Positions 10,223 through 59,735 of a DNA stretch of 64,000 nt are shown piece by piece. Position numbers and translations under genes: made by a program. The notes beneath the pieces are model-generated. The model saw only the letters and a program-made list of their open reading frames with translations. It made no database searches and was not told the origin of the DNA. How positions within the stretch are numbered: position 1 is the first letter of the stretch; the number at the start of each line of letters is the position of its first letter. The DNA is from Cellulosimicrobium protaetiae (lineage in GTDB: Bacteria; Actinomycetota; Actinomycetes; Actinomycetales; Cellulomonadaceae), in the NCBI RefSeq assembly GCF_009708005.2, contig NZ_CP052757.1, forward strand, positions 310,001 to 374,000. The letters are read 5' to 3'.

Positions 10223-10223
10223 G

Positions 10224-20096: not shown

Positions 20097-20099
20097 CAC

Positions 20100-41481: not shown

Positions 41482-41570
41482 CGCCGCGACGCCCCGATCG
41501 GGCACACTCGTGCCGGTCCCGCTCGTCCTCGGACGAGCGAGCACCCAGCACCCAGCACCTGAGGGGCATG

Positions 41571-42374
41571 ATGGCGTACTTCTTCCGCACGGGCACGACG
41601 ACGTTCCGCGCGACCGCGCACGTCGGCGGGGCGTGGCGCACCGACGAGCAGCACGTCGCACCGGCCCTCGGCCTGCTCGCGCACGTCGTCGAGACCGACC
41701 GGGCGGCCCGCGGGCGCGACGGCCTCGCGGTGTCACGCCTGTCCTACGACGTCTGGGGCGTCTTCCCGATCGGCGAGGTGGAGACGCAGGTCCGCGTGCT
41801 CCGCCCCGGGCGGGGCGTCGAGCTCGTCGAGGCGACGCTCTGGTGCGCGGGCCGCTGCGCCGTCTCCCTCCGAGCCTGGCTCGCGCGGGTCGGGGACACC
41901 GCCGACCTCGCCGGCGGTGCGCCGGGACCTGTGCCCGGACCGGACCGGACGCCGCCATGGGACCCCGCGAACGTCTGGCCCGGCGGCTTCATCGACTCCA
42001 TCGAGGTCCGCCGCAGCGCGGTCGAGCCCGGTCGCGCGACGGTCTGGGTGCGCAGCGACGTCCCGCTCGTCGCCGACGAGGAGGTCGGACCGCTCGCCCG
42101 TACGGCCGGGCTGCTCGACGCCGCCAACGGCATGGCCGTCCGCGCCGACCCGCGGGAGGTCGCGTTCCCCAACGTCGACCTCACCGCCCACCTCTTCCGG
42201 GCACCGCTCGGCGGCTGGGTCGGCCTCGACACCACCGTCGTGTTCGGTGCGTCGGGGACGGGCGTCACGCACGCGACGCTCCACGACGAGGACGGCCCGT
42301 TCGGGACGCTCGCGCAGTCGCTCGTCGTCCGCTCGCTGGTCCCGCGCGATGGCGCGGCACCTACCGACGCGTGA
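41571..42374 (+). CDS. thioesterase-superfamily protein (TesB-like double hot-dog)
   Basis: A 267-residue protein of the acyl-CoA thioesterase-like family: an N-terminal hot-dog ([39 protein letters not shown], read in parts) and a C-terminal one ([42 protein letters not shown]). It should hydrolyse or bind acyl thioesters. Two adjacent ATGs follow GAGGGG; the second is used here. Its end overlaps by 14 bases, tail to tail, with the biosynthetic cluster, so it may serve that cluster as an editing or release enzyme. Confidence 0.8.
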
Positions 42375-43713
42375 CCGCCTCGCCGGGGCTCGTCCCGGCA
42401 CGCGAAGCGTCCAGGACGCAGCGCTCGACCTCCCGCACGACCCGCTCCGCCGTCGTGTCGTCCAGGCGTGACGTGTCCGCGGTGAGGACGACGTCGATGC
42501 CGCCGCCCGGCGCGTCGACCAGGTGCAGCGTGAGGGTGACACCCCCCTGCTCGTCGGACGCGTCGGCGCGCGCGAGCCGTCGCGACCGCGTGGGGCGGGC
42601 GCGCAGGGTCCGGTCGGGGCCGGTGCCGCGACGGTCGTTGTACCAGCACGTGCCGTCGTGGGCGGTCGACGGGTCGGCGGCCGCGTCCGCCTGGAGCCGG
42701 TCCTTGTCGTAGTACGCCGACCGGTACGCCGTCATCGCGGCGCGCCAGACCCGCGTACCCACCTCGTCGAACGGCGCGTCGAGGCCGTCCACGTGCACCA
42801 GGCCCTCCATCGCCGTCGTCACGACGGCCTCGCCGAGCTCCCGGCGGAAGCGGTTGCTCACCATGACCTGGAGCGCGAGGTCGTCGCGACCGGCGGCGGC
42901 GGCGAGCGCCCGGCACGACGCCGCGAGCAGGACCCCCGACGTGCTCGTGCGCCACCGCGCGGCCACGCGCTCCGCCGCCGGGCCCAGTCGTCGCGAGCGC
43001 AGGACCGTCTGCCGGTAGCGCGCGGCCTCCGGCGGCGCCGGGTCGTGCGCGACGTCCAGGCGGGTCGGGAAGATCTCGACCGGGGCGGCACGCATCGTGC
43101 GCACCGTCCGCGCCCGCGCGGCGGCGTCGTGCCGCCGCCCCTCGTCGGACGTCTGCCACGCCGCCTCGTCGAGCGGCGTCCACGCGTCGGGCGCGGGGAG
43201 GGTCGTGCCCGCCGCGAGGGCCGTGAGGTCCGCGTCGACGACCGGCAGTCCCCACCCGTCGAGCGCGGTGTGCGCGAGCACGACCACGGTGTGGTGCACC
43301 GCGCCGTCCACCGTGACGAGACCCGCCCGCACGGGCAGCTCGCGACGGTAGTCGAACGCCCGGCCCCACAGCTCGTCGCGCAGCCGGGCGCCGTGCGCGG
43401 CGACCTCCGCCACGTCGGTCACGCGCTCCTCGACGACCTCGACCGTCCCCTCCCCGCACAGCTCCTGGACGAAGCCGTCGCCGAGCGGGTGGACCCGGGT
43501 CCGCAAGGAGTCGTGCCGCTCGACGAGCGCCCGCACGACGGCGGTCGCGGCGTCGGCCGGCACGGGCTCGTCGAGCGGTCCGCCCCACACGAGGTTGAAC
43601 TGGTGGTCCAGCGGCTCCAGGGCGGCGAGCGCCCGCCGGATGGCGGTCTGGCCCCACGTCGCGGGCCCCTCGCCCGCGCGCCCGCCGACCTCGACGCGGT
43701 GCACGACCCTCAC
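42361..43713 (-). CDS. stand-alone condensation-domain protein
   Basis: A 450-residue protein of the CoA/NRPS condensation acyltransferase fold. The usual HHxxxDG active site appears as LAHTALDGWGLP (second His and Asp-Gly present, first His replaced by Ala). Later motifs include NDRRGTGPDR-like and a C-terminal LTLHLVDAPGGGIDVVLTADTSRLD. It is last in the minus-strand cluster, its GTG overlapping the phosphopantetheinyl transferase stop. A free condensation domain would join an acyl thioester to an amine on a separate carrier protein, matching the absence of modular NRPS here. Confidence 0.8.
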   Translation of the reverse strand: MRVVHRVEVGGRAGEGPATWGQTAIRRALAALEPLDHQFNLVWGGPLDEPVPADAATAVVRALVERHDSLRTRVHPLGDGFVQELCGEGTVEVVEERVTDVAEVAAHGARLRDELWGRAFDYRRELPVRAGLVTVDGAVHHTVVVLAHTALDGWGLPVVDADLTALAAGTTLPAPDAWTPLDEAAWQTSDEGRRHDAAARARTVRTMRAAPVEIFPTRLDVAHDPAPPEAARYRQTVLRSRRLGPAAERVAARWRTSTSGVLLAASCRALAAAAGRDDLALQVMVSNRFRRELGEAVVTTAMEGLVHVDGLDAPFDEVGTRVWRAAMTAYRSAYYDKDRLQADAAADPSTAHDGTCWYNDRRGTGPDRTLRARPTRSRRLARADASDEQGGVTLTLHLVDAPGGGIDVVLTADTSRLDDTTAERVVREVERCVLDASRAGTSPGEAVTRR

Positions 43714-44495
43714 CGCGCACCCCCCGCGGCGCCCCGCACGGAGACGGGCGACGGGGTGTCCGCGCCCCAGACGTGGGTGCGGTGCGCGTGCGCTCGCGGC
43801 CCGGGCGTCGCGCACGCCGCGACGGCGCCGGCCGGTGCGGCCACGTCGCTCACCCACCACTCCTGCCCGTGCCACGGGCCGCCGTCGGCTCGCACGAGAC
43901 CGGGGGCCCCGACGTCGAGCCCGAGCACGTCGAGCAGCCGACCGCCGACCGCCTTCGCGCACGCCTCCAGCCGCGAGAGGCAGCGCCACAGGTCGGGGTC
44001 CGCGCCCGACCGCGCGACCGCCGGGGCGAGGAACCGCGCGGCGAGGCGGTGGACGTCGACGCGCGGGTCGCGCACCTGCACGTCGACGCCCACGTCCGTC
44101 TCCGCGAGCGCCACGAGCGCGTGGTCACCGCTGCGGCTGAGGTTCCACCGCTGCCCGACGACGGGCCCCGGCTTCCCGTGCGGCCCCACCTCCCAGCGCA
44201 CGTCGGCGGGCGACAGGCCGGTGCGCGCCGCGAGGACCTCGTGCGCCGCGACGTGCGCGCGGACGTAGCGCGCGGCGTCGGCGGGCGAGGCGAGGCGGCG
44301 GGCACGGTCACGCTCCGCCGCACCCAGCACCGCCGCGCCCAGCACCTCGGTCCCCAGCACGTCGCCACCCGCCGTCGAGCACGACCTGACGGTCGGGACG
44401 GGGCTCAGAACGACTCTCATGTCGCGCTCGGCGGGGGGTGGGGTCGTGTCGACGAACCACAGCTCGACCTCGGTCTCCGGGTCGACGACGCTCAT
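43710..44495 (-). CDS. 4'-phosphopantetheinyl transferase (Sfp type)
   Basis: A 261-residue enzyme that attaches phosphopantetheine from CoA to carrier proteins. The magnesium motif VGVDVQVRDP and the downstream helix LSRLEACAKAVG (W/F-x-x-K-E-A-x-x-K type) are both visible, as is the CoA-binding RWNLSRSGDHALVAL. The presence of a dedicated transferase fits the two carrier proteins of this cluster. Overlaps both neighbours by 4 bases. Confidence 0.9.
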   Translation of the reverse strand: MSVVDPETEVELWFVDTTPPPAERDMRVVLSPVPTVRSCSTAGGDVLGTEVLGAAVLGAAERDRARRLASPADAARYVRAHVAAHEVLAARTGLSPADVRWEVGPHGKPGPVVGQRWNLSRSGDHALVALAETDVGVDVQVRDPRVDVHRLAARFLAPAVARSGADPDLWRCLSRLEACAKAVGGRLLDVLGLDVGAPGLVRADGGPWHGQEWWVSDVAAPAGAVAACATPGPRAHAHRTHVWGADTPSPVSVRGAAGGAR

Positions 44496-45223
44496 GCGAC
44501 GAACTCCGGCAGGTCGTCGACGGGGGCCTTCAGCGGGGCGGCGGCGCGCGTCGTCACGACGACCTCCACCTCGCGGCCGACGGCGCGGGCCACCACCGGG
44601 CGCAGGTCCGCCACGGCGTGGTGCGCGCCGGGGACGTCGTCGGGGCCGACCGCGAGCACGGTCGCCGTCGCGTCCCGGCCTGCGGCGACGCCCGCGGCGG
44701 AGTCCTCCAGGACGAGGCAGCGTCGCGGGTCGACGCCGAGTAGTCGCGCCCCGGCGAGGAACCCCTCCGGGTCGGGCTTGCCGCGGGCCACGTCCTCCGC
44801 GCACACGAACCGCGCCGGCACCGGCAGCCCTGCCGCCGTCAGCCGCGCGAGCGCGACCTCGCGCGCCGCCGACGTCACGACGGTCCAGGCCCGCGGGTCC
44901 AGGTCGTCCAGGAGCTCCGCCGCGCCGGGCACCGCGACGACCCCCTCGGTGTCGTCGCACGAGATGCGGTGCAGCCACTCGACCTCACGTGCGACGTCGG
45001 CGCCCGGCGCAACGAGGCGGACCACCTCGACGTCGCGGCGGCCGTGCGACGCCGCGACGACCGCGTCGCCGTCGAGCCCGAGCCGTGCCGCCCAGGCGAG
45101 CGTGTGGCGGTCGATCGCCGCCGTCGAGTCGACGAGCGTGCCGTCGAGGTCGAGCAGCAGCGCCGCGCCACGCCACGCCCAGGTGTCGGGCGCGGTCACG
45201 GGGCCGGTCGGGGTCACGTTCAC
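44492..45223 (-). CDS. HAD-family hydrolase (beta-phosphoglucomutase-like)
   Basis: A 243-residue haloacid dehalogenase-type phosphatase or mutase: nucleophile motif LLLDLDGTLVDST, motif II VTSAA, motif III lysine in ARGKPDPEGFL and motif IV VLEDSAAGVAAG. The cap is the small helical type of sugar-phosphate phosphatases. In the cluster it could supply a sugar for the glycosyltransferase-like protein or dephosphorylate an intermediate. Start and stop overlap neighbours by 4 bases. Confidence 0.85.
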   Translation of the reverse strand: MNVTPTGPVTAPDTWAWRGAALLLDLDGTLVDSTAAIDRHTLAWAARLGLDGDAVVAASHGRRDVEVVRLVAPGADVAREVEWLHRISCDDTEGVVAVPGAAELLDDLDPRAWTVVTSAAREVALARLTAAGLPVPARFVCAEDVARGKPDPEGFLAGARLLGVDPRRCLVLEDSAAGVAAGRDATATVLAVGPDDVPGAHHAVADLRPVVARAVGREVEVVVTTRAAAPLKAPVDDLPEFVA

Positions 45224-47292
45224 AGCAGCTCCCTCGCCCGCGCGGTCCGCGCCTCCGCGTGAAGGTCTACGTACTGCCGCACCGGTCCGGTCACGTGCTG
45301 GAGCCCCAGCGCGGCCGGGCTCGGACGGCCGGGCGCGTCACCGACCGCGCGTGCCACGACCGGGAGGGCGTCCGCGGCGCCCGCGAGCGCGACCAGGAGG
45401 TCCGCGGCGGAGGGCTCGGGCGCGTCGGGTGCGGTCGCCCGGCGCGGCTCGGACGTCGTCGGGCTCCCCGGCGTGAGCGCCGTCGCACGCGACACCCACA
45501 GGCCGCGCGAGACGTACCGGCCGCCCGGCTCGACGCCGAGCAGCCCGCGCCTCTCGACCTGCTCGCACGCGAGGACCTCGACGGTCGCCCGGGAACGAGG
45601 ACCGCCGGTCTCCGCGGGCAGGTCGCCCGTGGAGGGCGCGTCGGGACGGCCGGACAGCGAGGGCAGGTCGGACGCCTCGGGACGGCCGGACAGCGAGGGC
45701 AGGTCGGACGCCTCGGGACGGCCAGACGGAGCGGGAAGGTCGGACCGGTCGGGACACCCGGACCGACCGGTGCGCGTCCCGCCCGAGGCCGCAGCGTCGT
45801 CGGCCCCGGCGACCCGGTGCTCGGCGGCACCGTCGAGGTCGACCTGCGCCGCGAGACGCCGCACCGCGTCGTCGGCGCGCGCACCGCACGCCGGGCAGTC
45901 GTGCACGACGACGCGCACCGGCGCCGCGGGACCCGCCGCCTGGCACACGACCTCGGCGTCGCGCTCCGCAAGGCGTCCCACAGCCGCCAGCACGGCAGGG
46001 TCGAGCTCCGCGTCAGCTTCGGCGTCGCTCGCCGAACCCGGGGTCACTCCCCACGCGGCAGTCGAGGTAGGGAGCGACCCCGGGTTCGGCGCGGTGCGGG
46101 TCACCGTCTCGCCCGCGCGGAGCGCGTCGAGGCCGAACGCGACGAGCTCGTCGACGAGGGCCTCCGGGCGGTCCGCCGGGAGCAGCCCCGAGAGCACCCA
46201 GGTCCGGACGGCGGCCGCGCGGTGAGCCGTGCCGCCCGGCCCGGCGGGCGGCCAGTCCTGGTGCGCGACGTCGTGCCCGAGCAGCCAGCACGCGGCACCG
46301 AGCTCGACGAGCGCCTCGCACGGCACGCGCCCGAGCTCCGGGGACGCCCCCGCGACGAGGACCGCGACGTCGTGCGCGACGACCGCCGGGTCGACGCCGA
46401 GCCACCACGACCAGTCGTCCCAGCCCCAGCCGAACGGGTGCTCGAGCGGCTCGCCCGCGTCGGGGCGGAGCAGGCGCAGCGTGCAGCGCGACCGTTCGAG
46501 CATGACCGCGACCGGCCGCGGCGTGGCGGGTGAGCGGGCCGGCTCGCGGTCGAGCCCGGGGAGGTCCCACGCGTCCGGGTCGACGGCGTCGCCCGCGGGG
46601 ACGGTCGCGTGCCGGGCGCCGTGCGCGTCGTTGCCCGCGAGGCTCGGGCCGTCACCGTGCTCCAGCAGGTGCGGCAGCGTCGCGACGACCGGGTAGCCCT
46701 CGCGGGCGCAGAACGTCACGACGGCCTCGTCGTCGTCGCGCTCGTCGTCGGGCAGGGTCGCGAGGTGCGCGGCGAGGCGCAGCGCGCCGTCGGCCGGGAG
46801 CACGAGGCCGAGCGTGGGCACCCACTCGTCGTGCCCGAGTGGCGCCCACGCCTGCCCGGCGGCGGCCGCGGCACGCACGAGGTACGCGTTGCGCGGGCTG
46901 TTCCAGTTCGAGTAGAGCGCGACGGCGTGCCGGTCCCGTGCACGCACCGCGCGCAGGACGAGCTCCGCGAACCCGGGGACCGGCGTGACGTCGTCCTGCA
47001 GCACGAGGTGGTGCGTCGCCCCCGGAGCCACGGCCGCCCACGCACGCTTCGCGGTGCGCAGCGGGCTCGGCGGGCCGTCCGGGTCCGGGTCCTCGACGAC
47101 CCGGACGTCGAGCGGCGCGCACGCGCGGACCAGCTCCGAGACGTCACCCCGCGCCGGGTGGTGCATGACGACGACACTGAGCACGGGCCCGGGAGCGTCC
47201 GGGCCGGGACCGGCCGTCGCCACCGGGACCACGTCCACCGCACCACGAACCGGCAGGTCCTCGACCTCGGGCGTCGCACCCCGCGCGGTCAC
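45220..47292 (-). CDS. large glycosyltransferase-like protein with low-complexity insert
   Basis: A 690-residue protein. The first 250 residues resemble a GT-A-type glycosyltransferase: LSVVVMHHPARGDVSELV, HHLVLQDDVTPVPGF (acidic metal motif) and SNWNSPRNAYLVRAAAA. The middle part has WGWDDWSWWLGVDP of unknown meaning. A CPAC (zinc-like) site follows at about 515-518, then a 36-base tandem repeat region encoding SGRPEASDLPSL units. A palindromic repeat lies within the gene without breaking the frame. The GTG start overlaps the MATE stop. Sugar transfer onto the product is a reasonable guess, not shown. Confidence 0.62.
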   Translation of the reverse strand: MTARGATPEVEDLPVRGAVDVVPVATAGPGPDAPGPVLSVVVMHHPARGDVSELVRACAPLDVRVVEDPDPDGPPSPLRTAKRAWAAVAPGATHHLVLQDDVTPVPGFAELVLRAVRARDRHAVALYSNWNSPRNAYLVRAAAAAGQAWAPLGHDEWVPTLGLVLPADGALRLAAHLATLPDDERDDDEAVVTFCAREGYPVVATLPHLLEHGDGPSLAGNDAHGARHATVPAGDAVDPDAWDLPGLDREPARSPATPRPVAVMLERSRCTLRLLRPDAGEPLEHPFGWGWDDWSWWLGVDPAVVAHDVAVLVAGASPELGRVPCEALVELGAACWLLGHDVAHQDWPPAGPGGTAHRAAAVRTWVLSGLLPADRPEALVDELVAFGLDALRAGETVTRTAPNPGSLPTSTAAWGVTPGSASDAEADAELDPAVLAAVGRLAERDAEVVCQAAGPAAPVRVVVHDCPACGARADDAVRRLAAQVDLDGAAEHRVAGADDAAASGGTRTGRSGCPDRSDLPAPSGRPEASDLPSLSGRPEASDLPSLSGRPDAPSTGDLPAETGGPRSRATVEVLACEQVERRGLLGVEPGGRYVSRGLWVSRATALTPGSPTTSEPRRATAPDAPEPSAADLLVALAGAADALPVVARAVGDAPGRPSPAALGLQHVTGPVRQYVDLHAEARTARARELL
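45645..45735 (-). repeat. in-frame 36-base tandem repeat
   Basis: Two full copies and a degenerate third copy of a 36-base unit, coding for SGRPEASDLPSL repeats in the glycosyltransferase-like protein. The two full copies look identical, so expansion is recent. Confidence 0.8.
46030..46091. repeat. REP-like palindromic element, copy 2 (inside a gene)
   Basis: Arms of 22 bases match as inverted repeats at 21 of 22 positions around an 18-base spacer, with the same core CCGAACCCGGGRTCGCTCC as copy 1. It is read through in frame as APNPGSLPTSTAAWGVTPGS, a proline/serine/glycine loop in the encoded protein. Confidence 0.72.
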
Positions 47293-49106
47293 CGCGCGAC
47301 CTCCGCGACCGTGTCCGCCGGCTCGACCGGCTCGGCCGGCTCGGCCGTGGCACGCCGTCGGACGAGGCGGACGGCGACGGGCAGCATGACGGCGAGACCG
47401 ACGACGTTCGTCACGGCGATCGTCGTGTACAGCGCGACCGGTCCCCCGCCCGTGCGCGCGAGGACGCCGCCGACGCCGAGCGAGACGGCGTGGTAGAGCA
47501 CGTTGAGCGTCACGGCGACGCGCCCGTACCCGAGCTGCTCCAGCAGGGTCAGCAGGTACAGCACGAGCCCGACGCCCGCGTACGACGGGCCGACCACCCG
47601 CAGGTACAGAGCCGCCTGCGCGGCGACATCGGGGTCGGCGGAGAGCCGACCCGCGACGAGCGGCGCCGTGAGCAGGACGAGCACCCCCACGACGACGTAC
47701 ACGCCCGCGACGACGACCGTGCCCGCGCGCAGCGTGCGCGGCAGGAGGGAGAGCCCGCCCGCGCCCCACTGCTGGTTCATGACGATGCTCACGGCCGCGG
47801 CGAGCCCGATCGCGGGCACGATGACGAGCGTCTGGACCGTCGCGGCGCCGCCGTAGCCGGCGACCACGTCGGTGCCCGACGGCCCGAGCACCCAGACCAT
47901 GACGAGGTTCGTCACGGTGAGCAGCAGGTAGGACAGGCCGACCGGCAGGCCGACGCCGAGCAGCAGCGCGCGCACGTCGACGCGCTCGTCGACATCGCCC
48001 GCGGCAGGCGCGGCCGACGCCGACGGGGCCTGCACGGAGGACGCCGCACCGCCCGGTGGCGGCGGCACGGGGTCGGCAGCCGGACGGGACGACGGCGGCG
48101 GCGGGGGAGGCGGCGGTGGCGGCGGGACCGGCGGCTGCGCGGTCGGCGTCGTCCACGACCCGGCGGGCAGCGCGCGGAGGGCCCTGCGCCACCAGGCGGC
48201 GAGGCGCTGCGGTGCCGGGTGACGACGCAGCGCGAGCAGCCGCCGCAGCCCCGGGACGTGCCCGGGCCGCGGGAGGAGGCGGGCGCGGACGAGGAGCGCC
48301 CAGGCGACGCCCGCGCCGACGAGCGTGGAGCCCGTGATCGCGACGGGGACCGCGAGCACGCCGAACCCGCCCACGAGCCCGACGACCCACACGACGAGCA
48401 CCTGCAGACCCGCGACGAGCAGCGCCACGGTCGCCGACGCGCCCGTGCGCGCCCACCCCCGCAGCGCTGCAGCGGCGACCGCCGTCGGGACGGAGAGCAC
48501 GCTCGCGACGACGGTCCACCGGGCGAACGCGACGAACTCCGCGACGAGCGGCTCCGGCACGGACAGCACGTCGGCGAGCGCCGGCGCGACCAGGACCACG
48601 AGCAGCGCGACCCCGCCGAGCACCGCCGCGCCCGCCGCGACGAACCGTCCCAGCAGTGCCGTGGTGGCCGACGTCGGGACGGTCGCGCCGTCGTCGCCCG
48701 CGTCACCCCCGGCGCCCTCCCCCGCGTCGCCACCCGAGCCGTCTCCCGCGCTCCGGGCACGGGACCCGTGCAGGCGCGCGAATCCGACCTGGGTCGAGAC
48801 GTCGAGCCCCTCCTGGACCGCGAGGACGAGGAACGTCACGGGGATGAAGAGGGAGCGCACGTAGAGCGCGTCGTCGCCCATGTGCCCGAGCAGCGCCGCG
48901 ATGACGAGCTGCGCGAGCGCCCCCACGACGAGCGCCGCGCAGATCGGGGCGGCGAGCCGGACGACCCGACGGCGCAGCGCCCCGACCGTCGGGCCGGGGT
49001 CCGTCGTGCCCGCGCCGGGCGGCGGGGGGACGGGCGGCAGGTCGCCAGCCGCCGGCGAGGCCGTCGCGACCGAGGTCGCGCCCGCCTCCTCAGACGAGCT
49101 CGGCAT
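47289..49106 (-). CDS. MATE-family exporter with proline-rich insertion
   Basis: A 605-residue efflux protein with about twelve helices in two bundles. The first bundle starts RLAAPICAALVVGALAQLVIAALLGHMG and the second RALLLGVGLPVGLSYLLLTVTNLVMVWVLG. Between them lies a long hydrophilic insertion containing a run of eleven prolines and Ala/Pro-rich sequence. MATE proteins export cationic drugs or flip lipid-linked products using H+ or Na+; here it would export the cluster product. It overlaps the dehydrogenase gene by 17 bases. Confidence 0.82.
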   Translation of the reverse strand: MPSSSEEAGATSVATASPAAGDLPPVPPPPGAGTTDPGPTVGALRRRVVRLAAPICAALVVGALAQLVIAALLGHMGDDALYVRSLFIPVTFLVLAVQEGLDVSTQVGFARLHGSRARSAGDGSGGDAGEGAGGDAGDDGATVPTSATTALLGRFVAAGAAVLGGVALLVVLVAPALADVLSVPEPLVAEFVAFARWTVVASVLSVPTAVAAAALRGWARTGASATVALLVAGLQVLVVWVVGLVGGFGVLAVPVAITGSTLVGAGVAWALLVRARLLPRPGHVPGLRRLLALRRHPAPQRLAAWWRRALRALPAGSWTTPTAQPPVPPPPPPPPPPPSSRPAADPVPPPPGGAASSVQAPSASAAPAAGDVDERVDVRALLLGVGLPVGLSYLLLTVTNLVMVWVLGPSGTDVVAGYGGAATVQTLVIVPAIGLAAAVSIVMNQQWGAGGLSLLPRTLRAGTVVVAGVYVVVGVLVLLTAPLVAGRLSADPDVAAQAALYLRVVGPSYAGVGLVLYLLTLLEQLGYGRVAVTLNVLYHAVSLGVGGVLARTGGGPVALYTTIAVTNVVGLAVMLPVAVRLVRRRATAEPAEPVEPADTVAEVAR

Positions 49107-51131: not shown

Positions 51132-52084
51132 GCGAGGACCGCCTCTCGGGTCAGGTCGTCGACGTCCGGGGACGTCGCCGCGACGGAGCGTGGGCCGAGG
51201 ACGAGCGAGCAGCGGTAGCCCAGCTCGAGGCACCGCTCGTGCAGGACGACCGGCGCGTCCGGCACGGCGTCGCACGCGGCGAGCACCTCCCAGACGCCCG
51301 TCGCCGCCGCGCCCGGGTCGGCGTGCAGCACGACGCCGCCGAGGTCGGGCGCCTCGCCCGGGTCCACGTCCACGCCGAGGACGACGCGCCGGGCGTCCGG
51401 TCCCGGAGCCACGGCCGGTGCCGTCGAGGGAGCGCCGTCGCGCGGGGGCGCCGCCTGGTCCGGACGAGGGCCGCGCGGGGCGCGTGCGACCGACAGCGCC
51501 TCGACCGGTCGGCCCGCTCCGTCGTGCCCGACGACGAGCGCGACGACCCGGTCGCGGGCGGGGACGCGCGTCGCCGTCGGCGGCAGCGTGCACTGCTCCA
51601 GGACGAGGACGAGGGCGTCGCCCCCGAGCCCGACACCCTGCGGGCCGCCGTGGGCGAGCTCCTCGTGCGCGAGGCGCAGCGCCGTGAACGGGCCCGCGAG
51701 GCCCTGCTCGGTCACGCAGAAGGTGTACGGCCGGTCGTCGAACAGGTCGGCGACGAACCCGCCGAGCAGGCGCTCGTGCTGGAGGTCGGGGGTCGTGACG
51801 ACGAGGACGACGAGGCGCACGTCGTCGAGCAGACCCCGCTCCGCGAGCGCGGAGCGCGCCGCACGGATCATCGTCGGGTAGTCACGACCCGGCCCGGTCT
51901 CGAGCCAGTCCGTCGGCTGGCCCTCCCCGTACACGTACCGCAGGTCCTCGGCGACCGACCGGCGCGTCCCGTCCCCGACGGGGACGAGGTCGTCGACCGG
52001 GACGTCGACGACGCCCCGCACGCGCAGGACGGCGCCGCCCGGCCCCGCCCAGGACGCCGCCTGGCTCCCGCCCCCGAGCGCCAC
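51128..52084 (-). CDS. thiolase-fold (KAS III-like) protein lacking the catalytic cysteine
   Basis: A 318-residue protein whose first half reads as a ketosynthase-like core: YPTMIRAARSALAERGLLDDV, LVVLVVTTPDLQHERLLGG and then VTEQGLAGPFTALRLA, which corresponds to the nucleophile elbow but has Leu where Cys belongs. LGGDALVLVLEQ follows as the usual strand. The second half is less conserved. It is probably a structural or specificity partner for the active KAS III-like enzyme of the cluster. The GTG start lies one base after the carrier protein gene. Confidence 0.65.
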   Translation of the reverse strand: MALGGGSQAASWAGPGGAVLRVRGVVDVPVDDLVPVGDGTRRSVAEDLRYVYGEGQPTDWLETGPGRDYPTMIRAARSALAERGLLDDVRLVVLVVTTPDLQHERLLGGFVADLFDDRPYTFCVTEQGLAGPFTALRLAHEELAHGGPQGVGLGGDALVLVLEQCTLPPTATRVPARDRVVALVVGHDGAGRPVEALSVARAPRGPRPDQAAPPRDGAPSTAPAVAPGPDARRVVLGVDVDPGEAPDLGGVVLHADPGAAATGVWEVLAACDAVPDAPVVLHERCLELGYRCSLVLGPRSVAATSPDVDDLTREAVLA

Positions 52085-52085
52085 G

Positions 52086-52382
52086 TCAGTTCCGGGTCGA
52101 GTGCTCGACGACGAAGTCCGTCAGCGAGCCCACGCTCTCGAGGTGGTGCTGCTCGAGCGACTCCGGGTCGACCTCCATGTCGAGCGAGTCCTCCAGGGCC
52201 ATGAGGAGGCCGAGGACGCTCGTCGAGTCGAGGTCGAGGTCGTCGAACAGGCGGGTCGCGTCGGTGACGTCGGGCAGCGGGCGCCCGAGGACGCTCGACA
52301 GCGCCTCGACGACGGCGCCGACGACGCGCTCGCGCCCGAGGGCCTCCTGGGACTCGGTGTTCGTGGGGGTGCCGATGCTCAC
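52086..52382 (-). CDS. acyl carrier protein (first of two)
   Basis: A 98-residue carrier protein with the phosphopantetheine serine at position 53 in DLDLDSTSVLGLLMALEDSL, acidic helix II and a hydrophobic C-terminal helix. The DSTS form resembles carrier proteins that receive amino acids from ATP-grasp ligases. It is encoded directly after the BtrK-like decarboxylase and BtrJ-like ligase genes, so it is their likely carrier. Confidence 0.9.
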   Translation of the reverse strand: MSIGTPTNTESQEALGRERVVGAVVEALSSVLGRPLPDVTDATRLFDDLDLDSTSVLGLLMALEDSLDMEVDPESLEQHHLESVGSLTDFVVEHSTRN

Positions 52383-52454
52383 GGTGTTCCTCCGGGGTGG
52401 TGGGTCGGGCGCCCGCGGTGCGGGCGGCGGCTGGGTGGCGGCTTCCGCCGTCGG

Positions 52455-53765
52455 TCAGGGGGCGGCGACGACGGGCTGGACGCGCGCGCCGAGGTCGTGG
52501 AAGACCTGGCGGGACAGGAGGTCGTCGGGCGTGTCGGCGTGCCGCACGAGGAACGTGTCCGCACCCAGGGTCAGGACCTCGGCGGGGTACCCGTGGCTGA
52601 GGAAGTGCACGGGCGACGCCGTCGCGCCGTACGCCCCCGACCGGTCCACGGCGACGAGGTCGCCCGGCGCCAGGTCGGCGGGGAGCGGGACGGCCTTGCC
52701 GATCGTGTCGTTGGGCGTGCACAGCGGGCCGGTGACGTTCCACGGCACGACCTCGGCGCCGGGCGCGGCGCCCACCTTGCGCATCGGGAAGTTGCGCTTG
52801 ACGAACGACCCGATGCCGACGGCCGCCATGTGGTGGTTCGTGCCGCCGTCGGCGACGGCGAAGCGCTCGCCCATCGACTCCTTGACGTAGCGCACGCGCG
52901 CGACGTAGGTGCCGCACAGCGCCACGAGGTAGCGGCCGAGCTCCATGACGAGGTCGGTCGCGGGGTGCCGCTCGACGAACGCCTCGATCACGGGGTTGAG
53001 CGCCGTGGTGAGGACGTCGACGTCCAGGTCGCGCTCCCGCTCGAAGTACGCGACGCCCAGCCCGCCGCCGACGTCGACGAGCTCGAGCGGGAAGCCCAGC
53101 CGCTCCGCGAGCCGCTCCGCGAGCTCGAAGATGCGCGTCGTGTTCTCGACGATCGTGCTCTCGTCGAGGATGCGCGTGCCCATGTACACCTGGACCCCGA
53201 CCACACGGGCCGTCGTGAGCCCGGCGCACAGGTCCGGCGCGTCGAGGAGCTGCTGCTCGTCGATGCCGAACTGGCGCGGCTTGCCGCCCATCGTCAGGCC
53301 GGAGCCCTTGACGGAGAACGACGGGTTGACGCGCAGCACGACGCGCGCCGGGCGCCCGGTCGCGCGCGCGAGCTCGTCCACGAGGGCCAGCTCCGGGAGC
53401 GACTCGACGATGATCGCCCGCACCCCCGAGTTGAGGCACGCCATGAGCTCGTCGCGGCTCTTGCCCGGGCCGAGGAACAGGATGTCCTGGGGCTCCACGC
53501 CCGCCGCGAGCGCGGTGCGCAGCTCCGTCAGCGACGACACCTCGGCGTTCGCGCCGAGCGAGTGCAGCAGCCCGCAGACGCTGACGTTGGGGTTCGCCTT
53601 GAGCGAGTAGAAGATCCCCAGCGCGGGGTGCAGGCGGTCGCGCAGGGCGCGGTAGTTCGCGGCGAGCACGTCGCCGTCGTAGACGTACACGGGCGTCCCG
53701 TACTCCTGCGCGACCGCGGCGAGGTCCGCGCTCCCGGGCGTCGTCGGGCTCGGAGTCGGGGTCAT
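52455..53765 (-). CDS. fold-III PLP decarboxylase, BtrK-like (carrier-bound amino acid decarboxylase)
   Basis: A 436-residue alanine-racemase-fold decarboxylase. The PLP lysine is K56 in FYSLKANPN; GPGKSRDEL, MGGKPRQFGIDE, ELVDVGGGLGV (phosphate loop), GPLCTPNDTIGKAV (catalytic Cys) and SGAYGATASPVHFLSHG follow. Blocks such as MGGKPRQFG and SPVHFL are typical of BtrK, which decarboxylates gamma-glutamyl bound to the carrier protein BtrI, more than of free-diaminopimelate LysA. With the ATP-grasp ligase and carrier next to it, it should make an amino-acyl (for example gamma-aminobutyryl) carrier thioester. Its ATG overlaps the ligase stop. Confidence 0.82.
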   Translation of the reverse strand: MTPTPSPTTPGSADLAAVAQEYGTPVYVYDGDVLAANYRALRDRLHPALGIFYSLKANPNVSVCGLLHSLGANAEVSSLTELRTALAAGVEPQDILFLGPGKSRDELMACLNSGVRAIIVESLPELALVDELARATGRPARVVLRVNPSFSVKGSGLTMGGKPRQFGIDEQQLLDAPDLCAGLTTARVVGVQVYMGTRILDESTIVENTTRIFELAERLAERLGFPLELVDVGGGLGVAYFERERDLDVDVLTTALNPVIEAFVERHPATDLVMELGRYLVALCGTYVARVRYVKESMGERFAVADGGTNHHMAAVGIGSFVKRNFPMRKVGAAPGAEVVPWNVTGPLCTPNDTIGKAVPLPADLAPGDLVAVDRSGAYGATASPVHFLSHGYPAEVLTLGADTFLVRHADTPDDLLSRQVFHDLGARVQPVVAAP

Positions 53766-55249
53766 CGGGGATCTCCTTCGATCGGGGTCGCGGCCGCCGG
53801 CGCCGTCGTGCGCCGGGCGGGCCGTTCCGTCAGCCGCTCCGTCACGGCGCGGTCGAGGCGGGCGAGGGCGTCGTCGTCGGGCGCGACGAGGAGGCCGTGG
53901 AGCCGGCCGGCGAACGTGCCGCCCGGTGTCGCGGACGACGCGCCGGCGTTGACCGTGCCCGTCCCCTGGACGACGAGCCCCGCCTCCCCGACGGCGCCGG
54001 GGAGCAGGTCGCCGAGGACGTCGTGGAGCGCCGCGAACGACAGCGGGGCGTCGAGCACGAGCGGGTACTGGCGCGCGAGCGCGACCCACCCCTCCGGCTG
54101 GAACCGCTCCTGCAGCGGCACGGTGTACGTGGACATGTTGCTGCGCGCGTTGATCTCCAGGACCGGCAGCAGCGAGCCGTCCGTGCGCACGAGCGCGTCG
54201 ACCCCGACGAGGCCGTGGAAGCCGTCGGCGGCGAGCCGCGCACCGAGGCGACCCGACAGCTCGGCCAGCGTGTCGACCTGCACCGCGGGCAGTCGCGACG
54301 GGATGCGGTGGCCCTTGTGGACGCCGCCCTCGGTGATCGCCTCCTTGACGAAGTCGAACGCGACCGAGCCGTCCTGGCCCACGGTGAAGTGGTAGTTGAG
54401 GTCGGCCGCCTTGTCGGCCCAGACCTCCACGACCACGGCGAGGCGGTCGTCGCCCGAGCGCGCGGCGCGGCGCGTCACCATGCGCACGAGCTGGTCGAGC
54501 CGGCGCGGGTCCTCGACGACGAGGATCCCCTTGCCGGAGACGCCGTACGCGTCCTTGACGCCCACGGTCGCGCCGTCCGCGACGAGCCGGGCCGCCTCGG
54601 CGCACGCGCGCTCGAAGTCCTCGACGGTCCGGCACGCCCAGCCGCGCGCCTGCTCGATCCCGAGCTCGTCGCACAGCCCGCGGCTGTAGACCTTGCTGTT
54701 GACGGCCTTCGTCGTCGCGGCGTCCGTGAGCACCGAGCGCAGCCCGGTCGCGGTCGCGAGGTCCTCCTCCGCCGACGACGTCCCGTGCGCGAGGAGCCGC
54801 ACGCCGTCCGTCGCGAGGTCGCGCAGGCGAGCGAGCAGCACGGGCGAGTCGAGCGCGTCGAGCGTGACGGTGCGCAGGGGGTCGCTCGACTCGGCGACGT
54901 GCACGGTCGGGAGCCCGACGCCGAGCGCGTCCAGGTGGGCGAGGTGGTCCGGGTCGGGCTCCGCCTTGAGCACCACGTGGTCGTCGGGGCCCGCGAGGAG
55001 CAGCGCGAGCTCGTCCATGCGGTTGACGAGCGCGGCCGTCGCGGACGCGCCCCCGACCGAGGGCAGGCCGACCTCCCCGACCGCCCACGCGTCCTCGACC
55101 TCGAAGTTCCCGAGCAGCACCAGCGGCGCGTCGGGCGCGCCCGCGAGCGCGCGCTTGGTCCGTGCGAGGAACGGCTCGGCGCCGGCTGCCGTCACGGCAT
55201 CCGGGGCAGCGTCCGGGGCGGCGGCCTCCGCCACCTGCTCGACCGTCAT
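53762..55249 (-). CDS. ATP-grasp ligase (BtrJ-like, pre-ATP-grasp type)
   Basis: A 495-residue ATP-grasp enzyme with an N-terminal pre-ATP-grasp domain (VLLGNFEVEDAWAVGEVG). The ATP lysine loop is VKDAYGVSGKGILVV and the metal-binding end VLEINARSNMSTYTVP. VKEAITEGGVHKGHRIPSRL lies between them. Relatives activate a carboxylate as acyl phosphate and join it to an amine or a carrier thiol. Overlap with the PLP decarboxylase suggests it loads an amino acid such as glutamate on the first carrier protein, as BtrJ does. Ligation of an amino acid to form a peptide is the alternative. Confidence 0.8.
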   Translation of the reverse strand: MTVEQVAEAAAPDAAPDAVTAAGAEPFLARTKRALAGAPDAPLVLLGNFEVEDAWAVGEVGLPSVGGASATAALVNRMDELALLLAGPDDHVVLKAEPDPDHLAHLDALGVGLPTVHVAESSDPLRTVTLDALDSPVLLARLRDLATDGVRLLAHGTSSAEEDLATATGLRSVLTDAATTKAVNSKVYSRGLCDELGIEQARGWACRTVEDFERACAEAARLVADGATVGVKDAYGVSGKGILVVEDPRRLDQLVRMVTRRAARSGDDRLAVVVEVWADKAADLNYHFTVGQDGSVAFDFVKEAITEGGVHKGHRIPSRLPAVQVDTLAELSGRLGARLAADGFHGLVGVDALVRTDGSLLPVLEINARSNMSTYTVPLQERFQPEGWVALARQYPLVLDAPLSFAALHDVLGDLLPGAVGEAGLVVQGTGTVNAGASSATPGGTFAGRLHGLLVAPDDDALARLDRAVTERLTERPARRTTAPAAATPIEGDPR

Positions 55250-56250
55250 GCGGGCTCCTCCGTCTCGTGGGGCGCGTAGCGCAGGACCATGGCGGAGAAC
55301 GTGGCACCCAGCCCGACCGCCACCATGAGGAACGGGTCGCCGGGACGCAGCCGGCCCTCGGCGCGCGCGGCGGCGTACCCGATGAACGAGTCGGCGCCGA
55401 AGCAGTGCCCGGTGACGGGGACGTCGTCGAGGCGGACGCGCGCGATCGGCAGCCCGAGGCGCGAGCACAGGCGCCGCCACGACACCCGGTTCACGTTGTG
55501 CGGCAGGACGAGCGCGAGGTCGTCCAGCGTCAGGCCCGCCCGCTCGACGGCCTCGACCACGACCTCCGCGAGCACCTCGGTGTACGCGACGCCGAACGGT
55601 CCGGCCAGGTCCTCCGGGAGCGGGACCTGGTGGTACTCGCCGAGCGTGCGCGTCGCGTAGGAGAGCACCGGGCTGCCGGCCGCGCGCGCGGGCCCGGCGG
55701 CGGACGTGCCCGTCGGTGCGGCCGCCAGGACTGAGGCCGCCACGAGGACGGCGGCCGTGCCCTCGCCCATGATCGTCGTGCCCTCGATGAGGCGGGAGCC
55801 CGGGCTGAACGCCTTCTCGCCCGTGAGGACGAGCGCGAGCGCGTCGGGGTCGCCGTCCGCGGCGAGCAGGCGCCCGGCGACGTCGACCGCGAGCAGCGCG
55901 GACGCGCACGCGTGCTGGGTGAGGGTCCACACGACCGCGTGGTCCAGCCCGAGGCGGTCCGCGGCGTCGTGCAGGGGGTTCACGCCGACCGGGGCGACCG
56001 TCGCGATGGTCCGCGCGCCCAGCACGTAGCGGACGCGGTGCTCGTTGCCGGCGAGGCCGGGCACGGCGCGGGCCGCGGCGACGAGGAGGTCCGTGAGGCT
56101 CTCGCCCGGCGCGGTGCAGACCTCGCGCAGCCCGAAGAATCGCTCGAACACGCCGAGCTCGAGGTGGTCGAGGCCCAGCTCGTCCGCGAGGTCGCGGATG
56201 GGCACGCGCGTCGCGGGGACGTGCGCGCCGACGTCGACGAGGGTCGTCAT
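55246..56250 (-). CDS. beta-ketoacyl synthase III-like enzyme
   Basis: A 334-residue thiolase-fold enzyme. The nucleophile C115 is in LTQHACASALL, and the histidine region reads LVLPHNVNRVSW. The place of the third residue (Asn in FabH) reads VTGHCFGADSF, with His instead of Asn, so it may be an acyltransferase or a condensing enzyme with altered decarboxylation. It is flanked by a carrier protein and the ATP-grasp ligase, with 4-base overlaps on both sides. The Cys-less relative encoded 3 kb downstream may pair with it. Confidence 0.82.
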   Translation of the reverse strand: MTTLVDVGAHVPATRVPIRDLADELGLDHLELGVFERFFGLREVCTAPGESLTDLLVAAARAVPGLAGNEHRVRYVLGARTIATVAPVGVNPLHDAADRLGLDHAVVWTLTQHACASALLAVDVAGRLLAADGDPDALALVLTGEKAFSPGSRLIEGTTIMGEGTAAVLVAASVLAAAPTGTSAAGPARAAGSPVLSYATRTLGEYHQVPLPEDLAGPFGVAYTEVLAEVVVEAVERAGLTLDDLALVLPHNVNRVSWRRLCSRLGLPIARVRLDDVPVTGHCFGADSFIGYAAARAEGRLRPGDPFLMVAVGLGATFSAMVLRYAPHETEEPA

Positions 56251-56513
56251 GCCGCGGTCCCGGGGACGTCCACGACGCCGCGCAGGTGCTCGGCGAGCGC
56301 GCGGGGCGTCGGGTTGTCGACGACCGCCTCCGGGTCCAGGTCCACGCCGAGCGCGTCCTCCAGGTCGCCCAGCAGGGCCAGCACCTGGACCGAACCGAGG
56401 CCGAGCCCGGCGAGGTCGCCCTCAGGGTCGACGTCCGCCGGGGCGACCCCCAGGGCGGCGGCGACGTGGCGCAGCACGAGGTCGTCGAGAGTTCCGGGAA
56501 GCGGTGAGGTCAT
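56247..56513 (-). CDS. acyl carrier protein (second of two)
   Basis: An 88-residue carrier protein. The serine for phosphopantetheine is S41 in GDLAGLGLGSVQVLALLGDLEDAL, where Gly replaces the usual Asp of DSL. Coupled by 4-base overlap to the fatty acyl-AMP ligase gene, so it is probably the acceptor of the fatty acyl group. Confidence 0.87.
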   Translation of the reverse strand: MTSPLPGTLDDLVLRHVAAALGVAPADVDPEGDLAGLGLGSVQVLALLGDLEDALGVDLDPEAVVDNPTPRALAEHLRGVVDVPGTAA

Positions 56514-58354
56514 GAGCGGGTCCCTGCGAGCTCGGTGCGCGCGCGGTCCCGGGACGCGCGCAGGGAGTGGAGCGCGGCGAGCTCGCCGCGGCCGTGCAGT
56601 TCGCGCGCCCGACCGCGCTGGATCTTGCCGCTCGTGGTCCGCGGCACCTGGCCGGGCCGCACGAGGACGACGTCGTGCACCGCGGCACCCGAGACGGAGG
56701 CCAGGTGGGCGGCCATCTGCCGCACCACCTCGTCGAGCTCGTCCTCGGCGCTCGCGCCGTCGAGCCGGGCGCCCGGCGTGGGACGGAACTCCTGGACCGC
56801 GCACAGCGTGCCCGGCAGGCCGTCGGCCTCGAACACCGCGCCCGGACGGCCCTCGGCCCCGGGGTGCAGACGGCGCAGCTCGCGCTCGAGGTCGTAGGGG
56901 TAGAGGTTGCGCCCCGCGACGATGAGGAGCTCCTTGATCCGGCCCGTGACGACGAGCTGGCCGCCGTGCAGAGCCCCCAGGTCCCCGGTCCGCAACCACG
57001 GGCCGGTGCCGTCGGCGGCGACGGCACCGAACGTCTCGGCGGTCGCGGCCGCCGCGGCGTCGCCCCAGTACCCGGCCGCGACCGTGCCGCCGCGCAGCCA
57101 GACCTCCCCGACCGCGCCGTCGGGCACCTCGGCACCCTCGGAGTCCACGAGGCGCAGCTCCACCCCGCTCGGCAGTCCGCAGCACACGAGGCGCGCGCCC
57201 GGGACGCTGCCCTGACCTCGCGCCGCGGCGTCCGGGAGGGCGGACAGGAACGACGCCTCCTCGAGCACCACGAGCCGGCCGTCGGCGAGCGCCGCGTCGT
57301 CCGCCGTGATGACGAGCGGGAGACGGCGGTCCGGGTACGTGGCCGTGAGCGTCGCCTCCGCGAGCCCGTACCCCGGGCCGTGCGCCGACCCGCGGAAGCC
57401 CACGGGCTCGAACCTGCGCGTGAAGGCGTCGACGACGGCGGGGTCCACCGGCTCGGCCCCGCCGAGAGCCCAGCGCAGGCGCGAGAGGTCGAGATCGGCG
57501 AGCTGGTCGTCACGCACGCGCCGCGCGCACTGGTCGTAGCCGAAGTTCGGCGACGCCGTGACGGTGGCCCCGGTCTCGGTGATCGCGGAGAGCCAGCGAA
57601 CCGGACGCTTGAGGAACGCCGTGGACGGGACGATGACGGCCGTCGCGCCGAGGCCCAGCGGGACGAGCAGCATCCCGACGAGACCGAAGTCGTGGTACCC
57701 CGGCAGCCAGCTGCAGAAGACGTCCTCCGGGACGAGGCCGAGGGTCGTCGAGAACGCGTCGTGGTGGTGCAGCACGTTCGCGTGCGTGACGACGACGCCC
57801 TTGGGGCTGCTCGTCGACCCGGAGGTGTACTGGAGGAACGCGACGTCCCGCGGGCCGGGGCGGTCGCGCCGGGCCGGGCCGTCCGTGGCGCCGTCGACCA
57901 CGGTCACGACGACGGGTCCGCCGGCGGCGCGCCGCAGCGGCTCCGCCCACTCCGCGGTCTCGGCTGCCGCGGTCGGGTCGACGAGCACGACGGCGGCGTC
58001 GCAGTCCGCGAGCATGCCGCGCACGCGCTCGCGCTGGTAGGCCTGACCGCCCGGGAGCGGGGACGGGACCGGGATCAGGCGTGCGTAGAAGCAGGCCAGG
58101 AGACCGACGACGAACGACGCGGTCGCCGAGTAGAGCACCAGGGCGCGGTCGCCGGGCTCGTGGTGCTCGGCGAGGTCGGCCGCGAGCGCGGCCGCCTGCG
58201 CGTCGAGCTCGGCGTAGGTGAGCGTGCGCCGCTCCCCCACCTCCGGCACGACCACCACCGCGGCGTGGTCCGGCCGCTCGTGCACGTGCTCGCGGACGAG
58301 GTCCACGAGGGTCAGGTCGTCCGGCTGCGCGCCCAACGTGGCCCCCTCCGTCAC
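56510..58354 (-). CDS. fatty acyl-AMP ligase (FAAL)
   Basis: An adenylating enzyme of 614 residues that activates a fatty acid as acyl-AMP and hands it to a carrier protein. AMP-binding motifs are FLQYTSGSTSSPKGVVVTHANV (split here), SWLPGYHDFGLVGMLL and GRIKELLIVAGRNLYPYDLE. The sequence LPGYHDFGL is characteristic of FAALs as opposed to CoA ligases. The GTG at VTEGATL is chosen because the domain begins soon after; the ribosome site is weak (GGGAGGG, 14 bases away). First gene of the minus-strand cluster. Confidence 0.9.
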   Translation of the reverse strand: MTEGATLGAQPDDLTLVDLVREHVHERPDHAAVVVVPEVGERRTLTYAELDAQAAALAADLAEHHEPGDRALVLYSATASFVVGLLACFYARLIPVPSPLPGGQAYQRERVRGMLADCDAAVVLVDPTAAAETAEWAEPLRRAAGGPVVVTVVDGATDGPARRDRPGPRDVAFLQYTSGSTSSPKGVVVTHANVLHHHDAFSTTLGLVPEDVFCSWLPGYHDFGLVGMLLVPLGLGATAVIVPSTAFLKRPVRWLSAITETGATVTASPNFGYDQCARRVRDDQLADLDLSRLRWALGGAEPVDPAVVDAFTRRFEPVGFRGSAHGPGYGLAEATLTATYPDRRLPLVITADDAALADGRLVVLEEASFLSALPDAAARGQGSVPGARLVCCGLPSGVELRLVDSEGAEVPDGAVGEVWLRGGTVAAGYWGDAAAAATAETFGAVAADGTGPWLRTGDLGALHGGQLVVTGRIKELLIVAGRNLYPYDLERELRRLHPGAEGRPGAVFEADGLPGTLCAVQEFRPTPGARLDGASAEDELDEVVRQMAAHLASVSGAAVHDVVLVRPGQVPRTTSGKIQRGRARELHGRGELAALHSLRASRDRARTELAGTRS

Positions 58355-58430
58355 CGGCGCCGGGACCCTCCCGGCGCGGAGACACCGGGCAGCACGAAGC
58401 CCCACCCGGCGGTCCGGGGGAAGCCTCGCA

Positions 58431-58467
58431 GCGGATGTCCGCGGTGTAAACAAATCGGACGTGTCCG
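58431..58467. promoter_or_regulatory. tandem dyads in the cluster's divergent promoter region
   Basis: GCGGA-TG-TCCGC is followed 13 bases later by CGGAC-GT-GTCCG; both are perfect 5-base inverted repeats with a two-base centre. They lie in the only AT-rich patch of the 213-base gap between the FAAL gene and the LuxR-type gene, and a related GTCC...GGAC pair follows. They are candidate binding sites of that regulator. Confidence 0.55.
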
Positions 58468-58567
58468 GAAGAGGACAAATACCCGCTGACCTCCCCGTTC
58501 GTCACATCGGTCCGGTCGTCGGGACTCCCCGGGAGGGCCTCGGAGGGGTCGGCTAGAGTCACACCGC

Positions 58568-59260
58568 GTGACGTCGTCGGAGCGGGACCCGGTGCTCGGC
58601 GCCCGGCGCTCCGCGCGGGCCGTCGCGCTGCGTCGCGCGCACGACGTGCTCGTCCTCGACGGCGGGGACGGGTCCGCCGAGCCGCTGTGGGTGCGCGTGC
58701 GGGACCGGGCGCGGCCCGACGCCCGCGTCCGGGTCGTGACGGTCGAGCCCCCGAGGGCCGCCGACGAGGAGGCACCCGAGCCGTTCGACGCGGACGCACC
58801 GGCGTACGCGGACGGCACCGGCGACGCGGGCGCACCCGTCACCGCGGCCGGCCCGGGCCCCGGAGGTCCCGAGGGACCCCCCGCCGTCGACCGCCGGGTC
58901 GCACCGACGCTGCGGCTGTCGCTCGTCGCGCTCGACGACACGGTCGTCCTCGTCGCCCGTCCCGCGCGGACGCGGGCCGTGACGGACCGGGACGCGGTCC
59001 TCGCGCTCCGGGCGCTCGCCGAGTCGCAGTGGGACCACGCCCGCCCGCTGGGCGACGCGCTCGGCCCGCGGGAGGACACGCTGCTGCGGCTCCTCGCGGA
59101 GGGCAAGACGGACACGGCCGTCGCCGCACGGCTCGGGGTGTCGCCCCGCACCGTCCGGCGGCACGCCGCGGGCCTCATGGGCCGGCTCGGTGCGACCAGC
59201 CGGTTCGAGGCCGGCGTCCGGGCCGCCCAGCGGGGCTGGATCCGGATGACGAACCGCTAG
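58568..59260 (+). CDS. LuxR-type helix-turn-helix regulator of the cluster
   Basis: A 230-residue protein without receiver domain. The C-terminal LuxR helix-turn-helix reads LGPREDTLLRLLAEGKTDTA then VAARLGVSPRTVRRHAAGLM and GRLGATSRFEAGVRAA. The N-terminal two thirds has an acidic, Gly/Pro-rich loop (DADAPAYADGTGDAGAPVTA) and resembles no sensor I know. The GTG follows TAGAGT by eight bases, so a leaderless transcript is likely. Divergent from the FAAL gene and probably controls the whole cluster. Its stop overlaps that of the next, convergent gene. Confidence 0.82.
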   Translation: MTSSERDPVLGARRSARAVALRRAHDVLVLDGGDGSAEPLWVRVRDRARPDARVRVVTVEPPRAADEEAPEPFDADAPAYADGTGDAGAPVTAAGPGPGGPEGPPAVDRRVAPTLRLSLVALDDTVVLVARPARTRAVTDRDAVLALRALAESQWDHARPLGDALGPREDTLLRLLAEGKTDTAVAARLGVSPRTVRRHAAGLMGRLGATSRFEAGVRAAQRGWIRMTNR

Positions 59261-59673: not shown

Positions 59674-59735
59674 GGGCGCGACCCTGCCACGCCCCCGCCG
59701 CGCGAGCACCGACTTTTCGACCCACACTGGCGGGC

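Follow-up and report, generated by a model that had tools for sequence, protein, structure and literature searches.

Genes of the operon and their conservation

The stretch of DNA analyzed here (the window) comprises 64,000 nucleotides of the Cellulosimicrobium protaetiae genome (positions 310001-374000 of one contig; genome 4.78 Mb, 2 contigs) and contains an operon of 14 contiguous minus-strand genes, which runs from a fatty acyl-AMP ligase (FAAL, 58354) down to a free-standing condensation protein (C, 42361). The operon probably makes an undescribed lipid: its seven-gene core is similar to machinery that forms a rare fatty-acyl dehydro-β-alanine unit in some antibiotics, but it is accompanied by sugar-type genes and lacks the peptide assembly line that such machinery normally serves. 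Genes were called by codon position and checked by translation, and domains were assigned with Pfam and NCBIfam. An initial annotation had counted sixteen minus-strand genes, but there are 14, because 58568-59260 encodes a divergent, plus-strand LuxR-type regulator; similarly, it had described nearly all genes as overlapping by 4 bases, whereas such overlaps are found at 9 of the 13 junctions with the start codons chosen in this analysis. The 14 functions that it listed are all encoded between 58354 and 42361, although the phosphopantetheinyl transferase is weakly supported, and the domain searches agree with its picture of free-standing functions that include a FAAL and a condensation domain, as in a dissociated thiotemplate pathway.

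The core is defined as seven of these genes. KS3 (55246..56250; ACP_syn_III_C 62.5 bits) is similar to β-ketoacyl-acyl carrier protein synthase III (KAS III) and is proposed to be an amide-forming acyltransferase. It is followed by ATPg (53762..55249; PreAtp-grasp 64 bits), an ATP-grasp ligase and putative aspartate loader, by DC (52455..53765; 331 bits against BtrK structures), a BtrK-like fold-III pyridoxal phosphate decarboxylase, and by ACP2 (52086..52382; PP-binding 36.8 bits), a carrier proposed to hold the amino-acyl group. The remaining core members are THI (51128..52084), a Cys-less KAS III-fold paralogue identified by a 58-sequence profile and a structure model, the shortened acyl-CoA dehydrogenase (ACAD)-like ACAD2 (50283..51131; Acyl-CoA_dh_1 26 bits), and ACAD1 (49090..50286; Acyl-CoA_dh_1 58 and Acyl-CoA_dh_M 52 bits), a candidate β-alanyl desaturase.

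Upstream of the core, FAAL (56510..58354; AMP-binding 226 bits; NCBIfam PRK05850 366 bits, below the model cut-off of 775) is the first gene of the operon. No other of the 14 is an AMP-binding gene, and the position of the loader is held by the ATP-grasp protein. The ATGA overlap of FAAL provides the start of ACP1 (56247..56513; PP-binding 57.7 bits), the putative fatty-acyl carrier. Downstream of the core lie a MATE-family exporter (47289..49106; MatE 84 bits), a transferase-like protein, GT, with perhaps a GT-A fold and a poorly conserved C-terminal part (45220..47184), a sugar-phosphatase-like HAD phosphatase adjoining it (44492..45223; Hydrolase 63 bits; NCBIfam sugar phosphatase 164 bits, below the cut-off of 282), the phosphopantetheinyl transferase-like PPT (43710..44495; ACPS 14.5 bits, below the cut-off; NCBIfam HetI 32 bits), and C itself (42361..43713; Condensation 47 bits), a proposed releasing and conjugating enzyme. 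No Pfam or NCBIfam family was matched by THI or GT. Nonribosomal peptide synthetase (NRPS) genes are absent among the 14 operon genes and the 10 neighboring genes scanned for domains, and no malonyl-handling gene was recognized by Pfam or NCBIfam among the 14.

The complete set is present in identical order in 11 of the 13 fetched loci of the same family; of the other two, one stops at a contig end (L016), and the other keeps a divergent six-gene core (L021). Compared with genus relatives (L013, L017 and L018), dN/dS ranges from 0.00 to 0.47 across all 14 genes. Within the genus, 12 of 17 genomes have ATPg and 13 have KS3; across the family, ATPg occurs in 14 of 200 sampled genomes, representing 3 of 25 genera. 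None of the 13 pattern matches among viral contigs encodes a relative of ATPg. In one relative (L019, matching C. terreum) KS3 and ATPg share one open frame (4070-6427), as do ACAD2 and ACAD1 (9110-11017); these are possibly gene fusions, which would fit a physical pairing of the products. A further copy of the Cellulosimicrobium-type operon is borne by record QAPD01000069.1 (L026), titled Sphaerisporangium cinnabarinum ATCC 31213, a title that is probably out of date.

The LuxR-type regulator (58568..59260, plus strand; GerE 43.5 bits) lies 213 bp from FAAL and is present in 11 of the 13 fetched loci, and past it, at 59257-60365, are glyoxalase-like and Glycolipid_bind (PF06475) genes, each found in 9 of the 13. 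On the other side, a 4HBT_3 acyl-CoA thioesterase-like gene (41568..42374, plus strand; 4HBT_3C 70.8 bits) converges on C, lies beside it in 6 of the 13 loci and is a possible accessory. Elsewhere in the window (16812-22418), a NAGidase (β-N-acetylglucosaminidase) with an F5/8 type C domain adjoins a BNR-repeat (sialidase-like) protein, with oligopeptide-type ABC transporter and GFO/IDH/MocA genes nearby; this group looks like one for glycan use.

Core enzymes and their distribution in actinobacteria

The gene set, the protein families, the conserved catalytic residues, and the conservation and co-occurrence of the genes are direct observations. DC aligns with BtrK over residues 8-421 of 436 at 331 bits, compared with 174 bits for the best diaminopimelate decarboxylase, and by this measure of sequence similarity BtrK is its nearest solved relative by a wide margin. 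The adjoining ACP2 keeps the carrier Ser in all 77 sequences, and Cys115, His251 and His282 of KS3 are invariant in 80 of 80. The catalytic Glu373 of ACAD1 is present in 69 of 69 sequences, and in the HHxxxDG motif of C the second His is found in 20 and the Asp in all 21 aligned sequences, some of which are NRPS condensation domains. The nearest solved relative in the ATPg profile search is PGM1 (E 5.5e-11). THI is KAS III-like both by its profile and by its predicted model (VIA-align), which is similar to subunits of enzymes that form C-C bonds, such as PqsBC; hhalign of THI against only KS3 gave no significant match (probability 2.3). Its active-site column, located by alignment to a solved KAS III, holds A130.

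Scanning genome contigs with the ATPg alignment yielded 100 relatives, 80 of which were kept, namely 9 Cellulosimicrobium-type loci and 71 other actinobacterial loci (L031-L101). The core is not private to Cellulosimicrobium: KS3, ATPg, DC, ACP2, THI and ACAD1 occur all together in 56 of the 71 loci outside the genus, and profiles detect KS3 in 66, DC in 66, ACP2 in 63, THI in 62 and ACAD1 in 56, with the ACAD2 family, counted by BLAST, in 53. ACAD1 alone is missing in six loci (L031, L042, L051, L053, L075 and L088), in some because the record ends, and two or three core genes are missing in four more. Five Amycolatopsis loci (L038, L045, L047, L048 and L070) have ATPg without KS3, DC, ACP2, THI or ACAD1 and carry NRPS fragments and PALP/OCD genes nearby, and can be read as another use of the same ligase.

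Three settings can be distinguished among the 71 loci. Setting A, the FAAL type, includes 15 loci with a FAAL, plus one (L060) with polyketide synthase-type genes in its place. Setting B is the NRPS side, with PALP in 23 loci and OCD in 16 of those, five of them ATPg-only loci; this gene pair would fit diaminopropionate supply. The Streptomyces rimosus locus of setting B encodes a 4-module NRPS with two neighboring modules of near-identical A-domain context, as compared by eye, which is the layout expected for an enamidonin-like peptide, though its flank yielded no ACAD1. In setting C, glutamate mutase and/or AsnA-like genes are found in 10 loci (L031-L037, L042, L046 and L053), 6 of which also have NRPS fragments, and the product is perhaps an alpha-methyl version of dehydro-β-alanine; L036 adds a Glu_synthase/FMN-type enzyme and a C-A-T-TE NRPS. 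In a tree of KS3, ATPg and DC, the window groups with Pseudoclavibacter L066 (support 0.999) and then with L060 and setting C (1.0), the position of L060 itself being weakly supported (0.507), while most setting B loci sit elsewhere and L088, L093, L094, L099 and L100 form a further separate clade. Several other loci match none of the three settings by their neighbors within 10 kb.

Sugar-type genes were followed through GT, whose N-terminal ~370 residues are conserved in 12 sequences. The GT family is found in 10 of the 16 setting A genomes, and in all ten a copy lies no more than 20 kb from an ATPg gene; in one of them (G614) this copy is near a second ATPg and not near that of L087, and both G616 and G614 have additional, weaker GT matches at other places. 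The ten fetched GT regions contain IMPase-like genes (9), class III aminotransferases (7), GFO/IDH/MocA (7), sulfotransferases (5), NodB-like genes (4) and HAD (2), with one or a few members of each family scanned against Pfam and the rest assigned by BLAST. Within flanks of up to 10 kb, tblastn gave no match to these families in the seven setting A loci without a core-side GT, nor in the other 55 loci save GFO at 33% in L039 and L049. In several clusters of setting A there is a second unit, which consists of a condensation protein, a ~200-residue protein of no Pfam family, a GT and a MATE gene (957-5416 in L109, with counterparts in L110-L118), as if two acyl transfers were made to a sugar.

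Proposed pathway and its alternatives

The operon can be proposed, with somewhat more confidence than doubt, to build an N-fatty-acyl-dehydro-β-alanyl (enamide) thioester with free-standing enzymes and to pass it to a small acceptor. All catalytic steps, all substrates and the acceptor are assigned by analogy. PPT would activate both carriers, and ATPg would put L-aspartate on ACP2 via its side-chain carboxyl, after which DC would convert aspartyl-ACP2 to β-alanyl-ACP2. In parallel, FAAL would load a fatty acid on ACP1; KS3, perhaps paired with the Cys-less THI, would take the acyl chain on Cys115 and move it to the amino group of β-alanyl-ACP2, thus forming an amide and not a C-C bond. ACAD1 and ACAD2 would then desaturate the product to N-acyl-dehydro-β-alanyl-ACP2, C would transfer it to an acceptor with an amine or hydroxyl group, and MATE would export the final product. 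The acceptor is probably amino-sugar or amino-cyclitol-like, and GT and HAD would make or trim it; its joining by C is the least certain step, and it is weakest for the window operon because no aminotransferase, NodB-like or GFO/IDH/MocA gene lies beside it.

Close precedents for such steps come from Burkholderia. For bolagladin, it has been proposed that aspartate is loaded on a free carrier and decarboxylated by the BtrK-like BolN, and that a KAS III homologue then N-acylates the product and the ACAD BolQ desaturates it; deletion of bolN abolishes bolagladins and β-alanine feeding does not rescue them, while deletion of bolQ leads to β-alanine analogues (PMC7756342). For AFC-BC11, loading and decarboxylation of L-aspartate on the carrier and acylation by FAAL were achieved in vitro, as was the storage of β-alanyl peptide chains by a KAS III-like enzyme and their transfer to an amine (PMC12186527). 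In addition, olenamidonins contain dehydro-β-alanine, and their authors assign a 3-oxoacyl-ACP synthase to joining the acyl-CoA to it (PMC11204786). Aspartate is favored over glutamate as the likely substrate of ATPg because of these three parallels and because a branch with glutamate mutase lies near the operon in the tree. Methyl-aspartate is unlikely in this operon, since the C. protaetiae genome has no glutamate mutase match.

Several observations weigh against this scheme. The loader of bolagladin and AFC-BC11 is a VinN-type adenylation (A) domain and not an ATP-grasp protein (PMC7756342 and PMC12186527); furthermore, in the AFC pathway the acyl group is attached by FAAL itself and the chain is released by a KAS III-like enzyme (PMC12186527), so that the roles of KS3 and C could be swapped. 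That the actinobacterial core corresponds to the autucedine core is judged from parallel functions and neighbors. No ACAD1 was detected in L051, L075 or L088 though KS3 to THI are present, so that desaturation may not be universal. Ten of 75 THI sequences keep the active-site Cys (L039, L041, L044, L049, L050, L072, L073, L078, L079 and L095), so that THI is not inactive family-wide; all come from loci of the NRPS side, or loci related to them, that lie outside the branch of the operon, and none is from Cellulosimicrobium or setting A. As to the acceptor, the GT profile matches the CofC guanylyltransferase weakly (E 6e-4), so GT could be a nucleotidyltransferase; a GT match is absent in 6 of the 16 genomes of the branch, and the GFO/IDH/MocA match nearest to the window operon is 28 kb off at 30% identity.

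The initial annotation had likened the ligase, decarboxylase and carrier to butirosin BtrJ-BtrK-BtrI. The BtrK-like nature of the decarboxylase is borne out, while a route in which the gamma-carboxyl of glutamate is loaded, decarboxylated to gamma-aminobutyryl-ACP2 and N-acylated to a lipid amide seems unlikely. That BtrK acts on glutamyl-BtrI and that ATPg adjoins DC speak for it, but described pathways with such a decarboxylase and an ACAD use aspartate, the nearby glutamate mutase branch points to methyl-aspartate, and the abstract of a desertomycin study mentions facile cyclization of a gamma-aminobutanoyl starter. Similarly doubtful is an iterative route as in AFC-BC11, with several aspartates added and decarboxylated to an oligo-β-alanyl (dehydro-β-alanyl) chain before acylation, release onto an amino acid or amine by the KAS III-like enzyme or C, and GT and HAD that only tailor. 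AFC-BC11 is also made without an NRPS by FAAL, a carrier, a decarboxylase, KAS III-like enzymes and an ACAD, and a UDP-glycosyltransferase-type gene is required for its production (PMC12186527). PGM1, moreover, is a peptide ligase by name. On the other hand, the loader fold differs from that of AFC, AFC has no condensation domain and one carrier against two here, and olenamidonins hold a single dehydro-β-alanine (PMC11204786). Still less probable is C-C bond formation by KS3 in a KAS III-type Claisen reaction giving an acyl-extended amino ketone or a cyclized product, in which case the fatty chain would be the substrate of the ACADs. The Cys and two His, as in elongating KAS I/II enzymes, and the predicted likeness of THI to PqsBC-type subunits speak for it; the lack of a malonyl-handling gene speaks against it, as does amide formation by KAS III-like enzymes, which is seen in AFC and proposed for bolagladin and olenamidonin.

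If the N-acyl-dehydro-β-alanine scheme is extended to its end point, the operon may tentatively represent an undescribed actinobacterial, NRPS-free lipid class, in which the acyl unit is joined by a free condensation protein to an amino-sugar or amino-cyclitol and the Cys-His-His KAS III-like protein and its Cys-less partner act as the amide synthase. The logic of NodC/NodB/NodA and of mycothiol is a functional parallel. The comparison of the loci suggests that core-type machinery is common in actinobacteria and has at least three settings, of which one includes NRPS and diaminopropionate-type genes, another is marked by glutamate mutase, and the third lacks an NRPS, has a FAAL and in most of its genomes adds sugar-type genes. 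If this is true, it points to genomes in which an undescribed lipid class can be sought, and to a pair of KAS III-like proteins whose amide-forming role can be tested. A lipid-linked amine or small lipoamide had been suggested as the product, and the lipoamide part was a fair guess.

Comparison with described pathways

The claim that no described cluster has this gene set is partly wrong: the open-access literature searched did not yield the exact set of 14 genes and also contained no description of the NRPS-free branch with FAAL and a free condensation protein and no paper on Cellulosimicrobium with a fatty acyl-AMP ligase, but the core logic is known for bolagladins, AFC-BC11 and autucedine/olenamidonin. 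The butirosin proteins BtrI, BtrJ and BtrK share with the operon a BtrK-type decarboxylase, a dedicated carrier and an ATP-using ligase. Butirosin biosynthesis, however, starts from glutamate and acylates an aminoglycoside, and it is not known to involve a FAAL or ACAD. The streptoaminal/5aTHQ cluster was considered as Streptomyces nigrescens HEK616 has the core (L098), and was rejected since a review gives it nine genes, two ketosynthase/chain length factor (KS/CLF) sets and an aminotransferase. Solanimycin was set aside as a dehydro-β-alanine parallel, as its report argues for dehydro-alpha-alanine.

Dehydro-β-alanine is rare, and the 2020 bolagladin paper knew only the enamidonins besides (PMC7756342), AFC-BC11 having come later. 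The Streptomyces products enamidonin, autucedine and olenamidonin contain a fatty acid amide-linked to dehydro-β-alanine, and some of the loci that share the core adjoin NRPS and diaminopropionate-type genes. These products are, however, NRPS tetrapeptides; the operon has FAAL, GT, HAD and MATE and is not assigned to the enamidonin-type clusters because it has no NRPS.

AFC-BC11 (afc, Burkholderia cepacia complex) resembles the operon in being NRPS-free and dissociated and in its FAAL, carrier, PLP decarboxylase, KAS III-like enzymes, dehydrogenase and glycosyltransferase-type gene, whereas it differs in its VinN-type A loader, three dehydro-β-alanines plus lysine, citrate-synthase-type acyl chemistry and lack of a condensation domain. 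Bolagladin (bol, Burkholderia gladioli) shares the BtrK-like decarboxylase, the free carrier and the ACAD that makes dehydro-β-alanine, and its two KAS III homologues without Cys are counted as a further likeness, but bol has a VinN-type loader, an NRPS and a citrate-derived fatty acid. The operon is not placed with bol and afc because it has no VinN-type loader. It possesses the other traits of the starter module, namely the BtrK-like decarboxylase beside a free carrier, an ACAD with the catalytic Glu and KAS III-like acyltransferases (KS3 and THI), and by analogy its core can be read as an N-acyl-dehydro-β-alanine module with an ATP-grasp loader replacing the VinN-type A domain.

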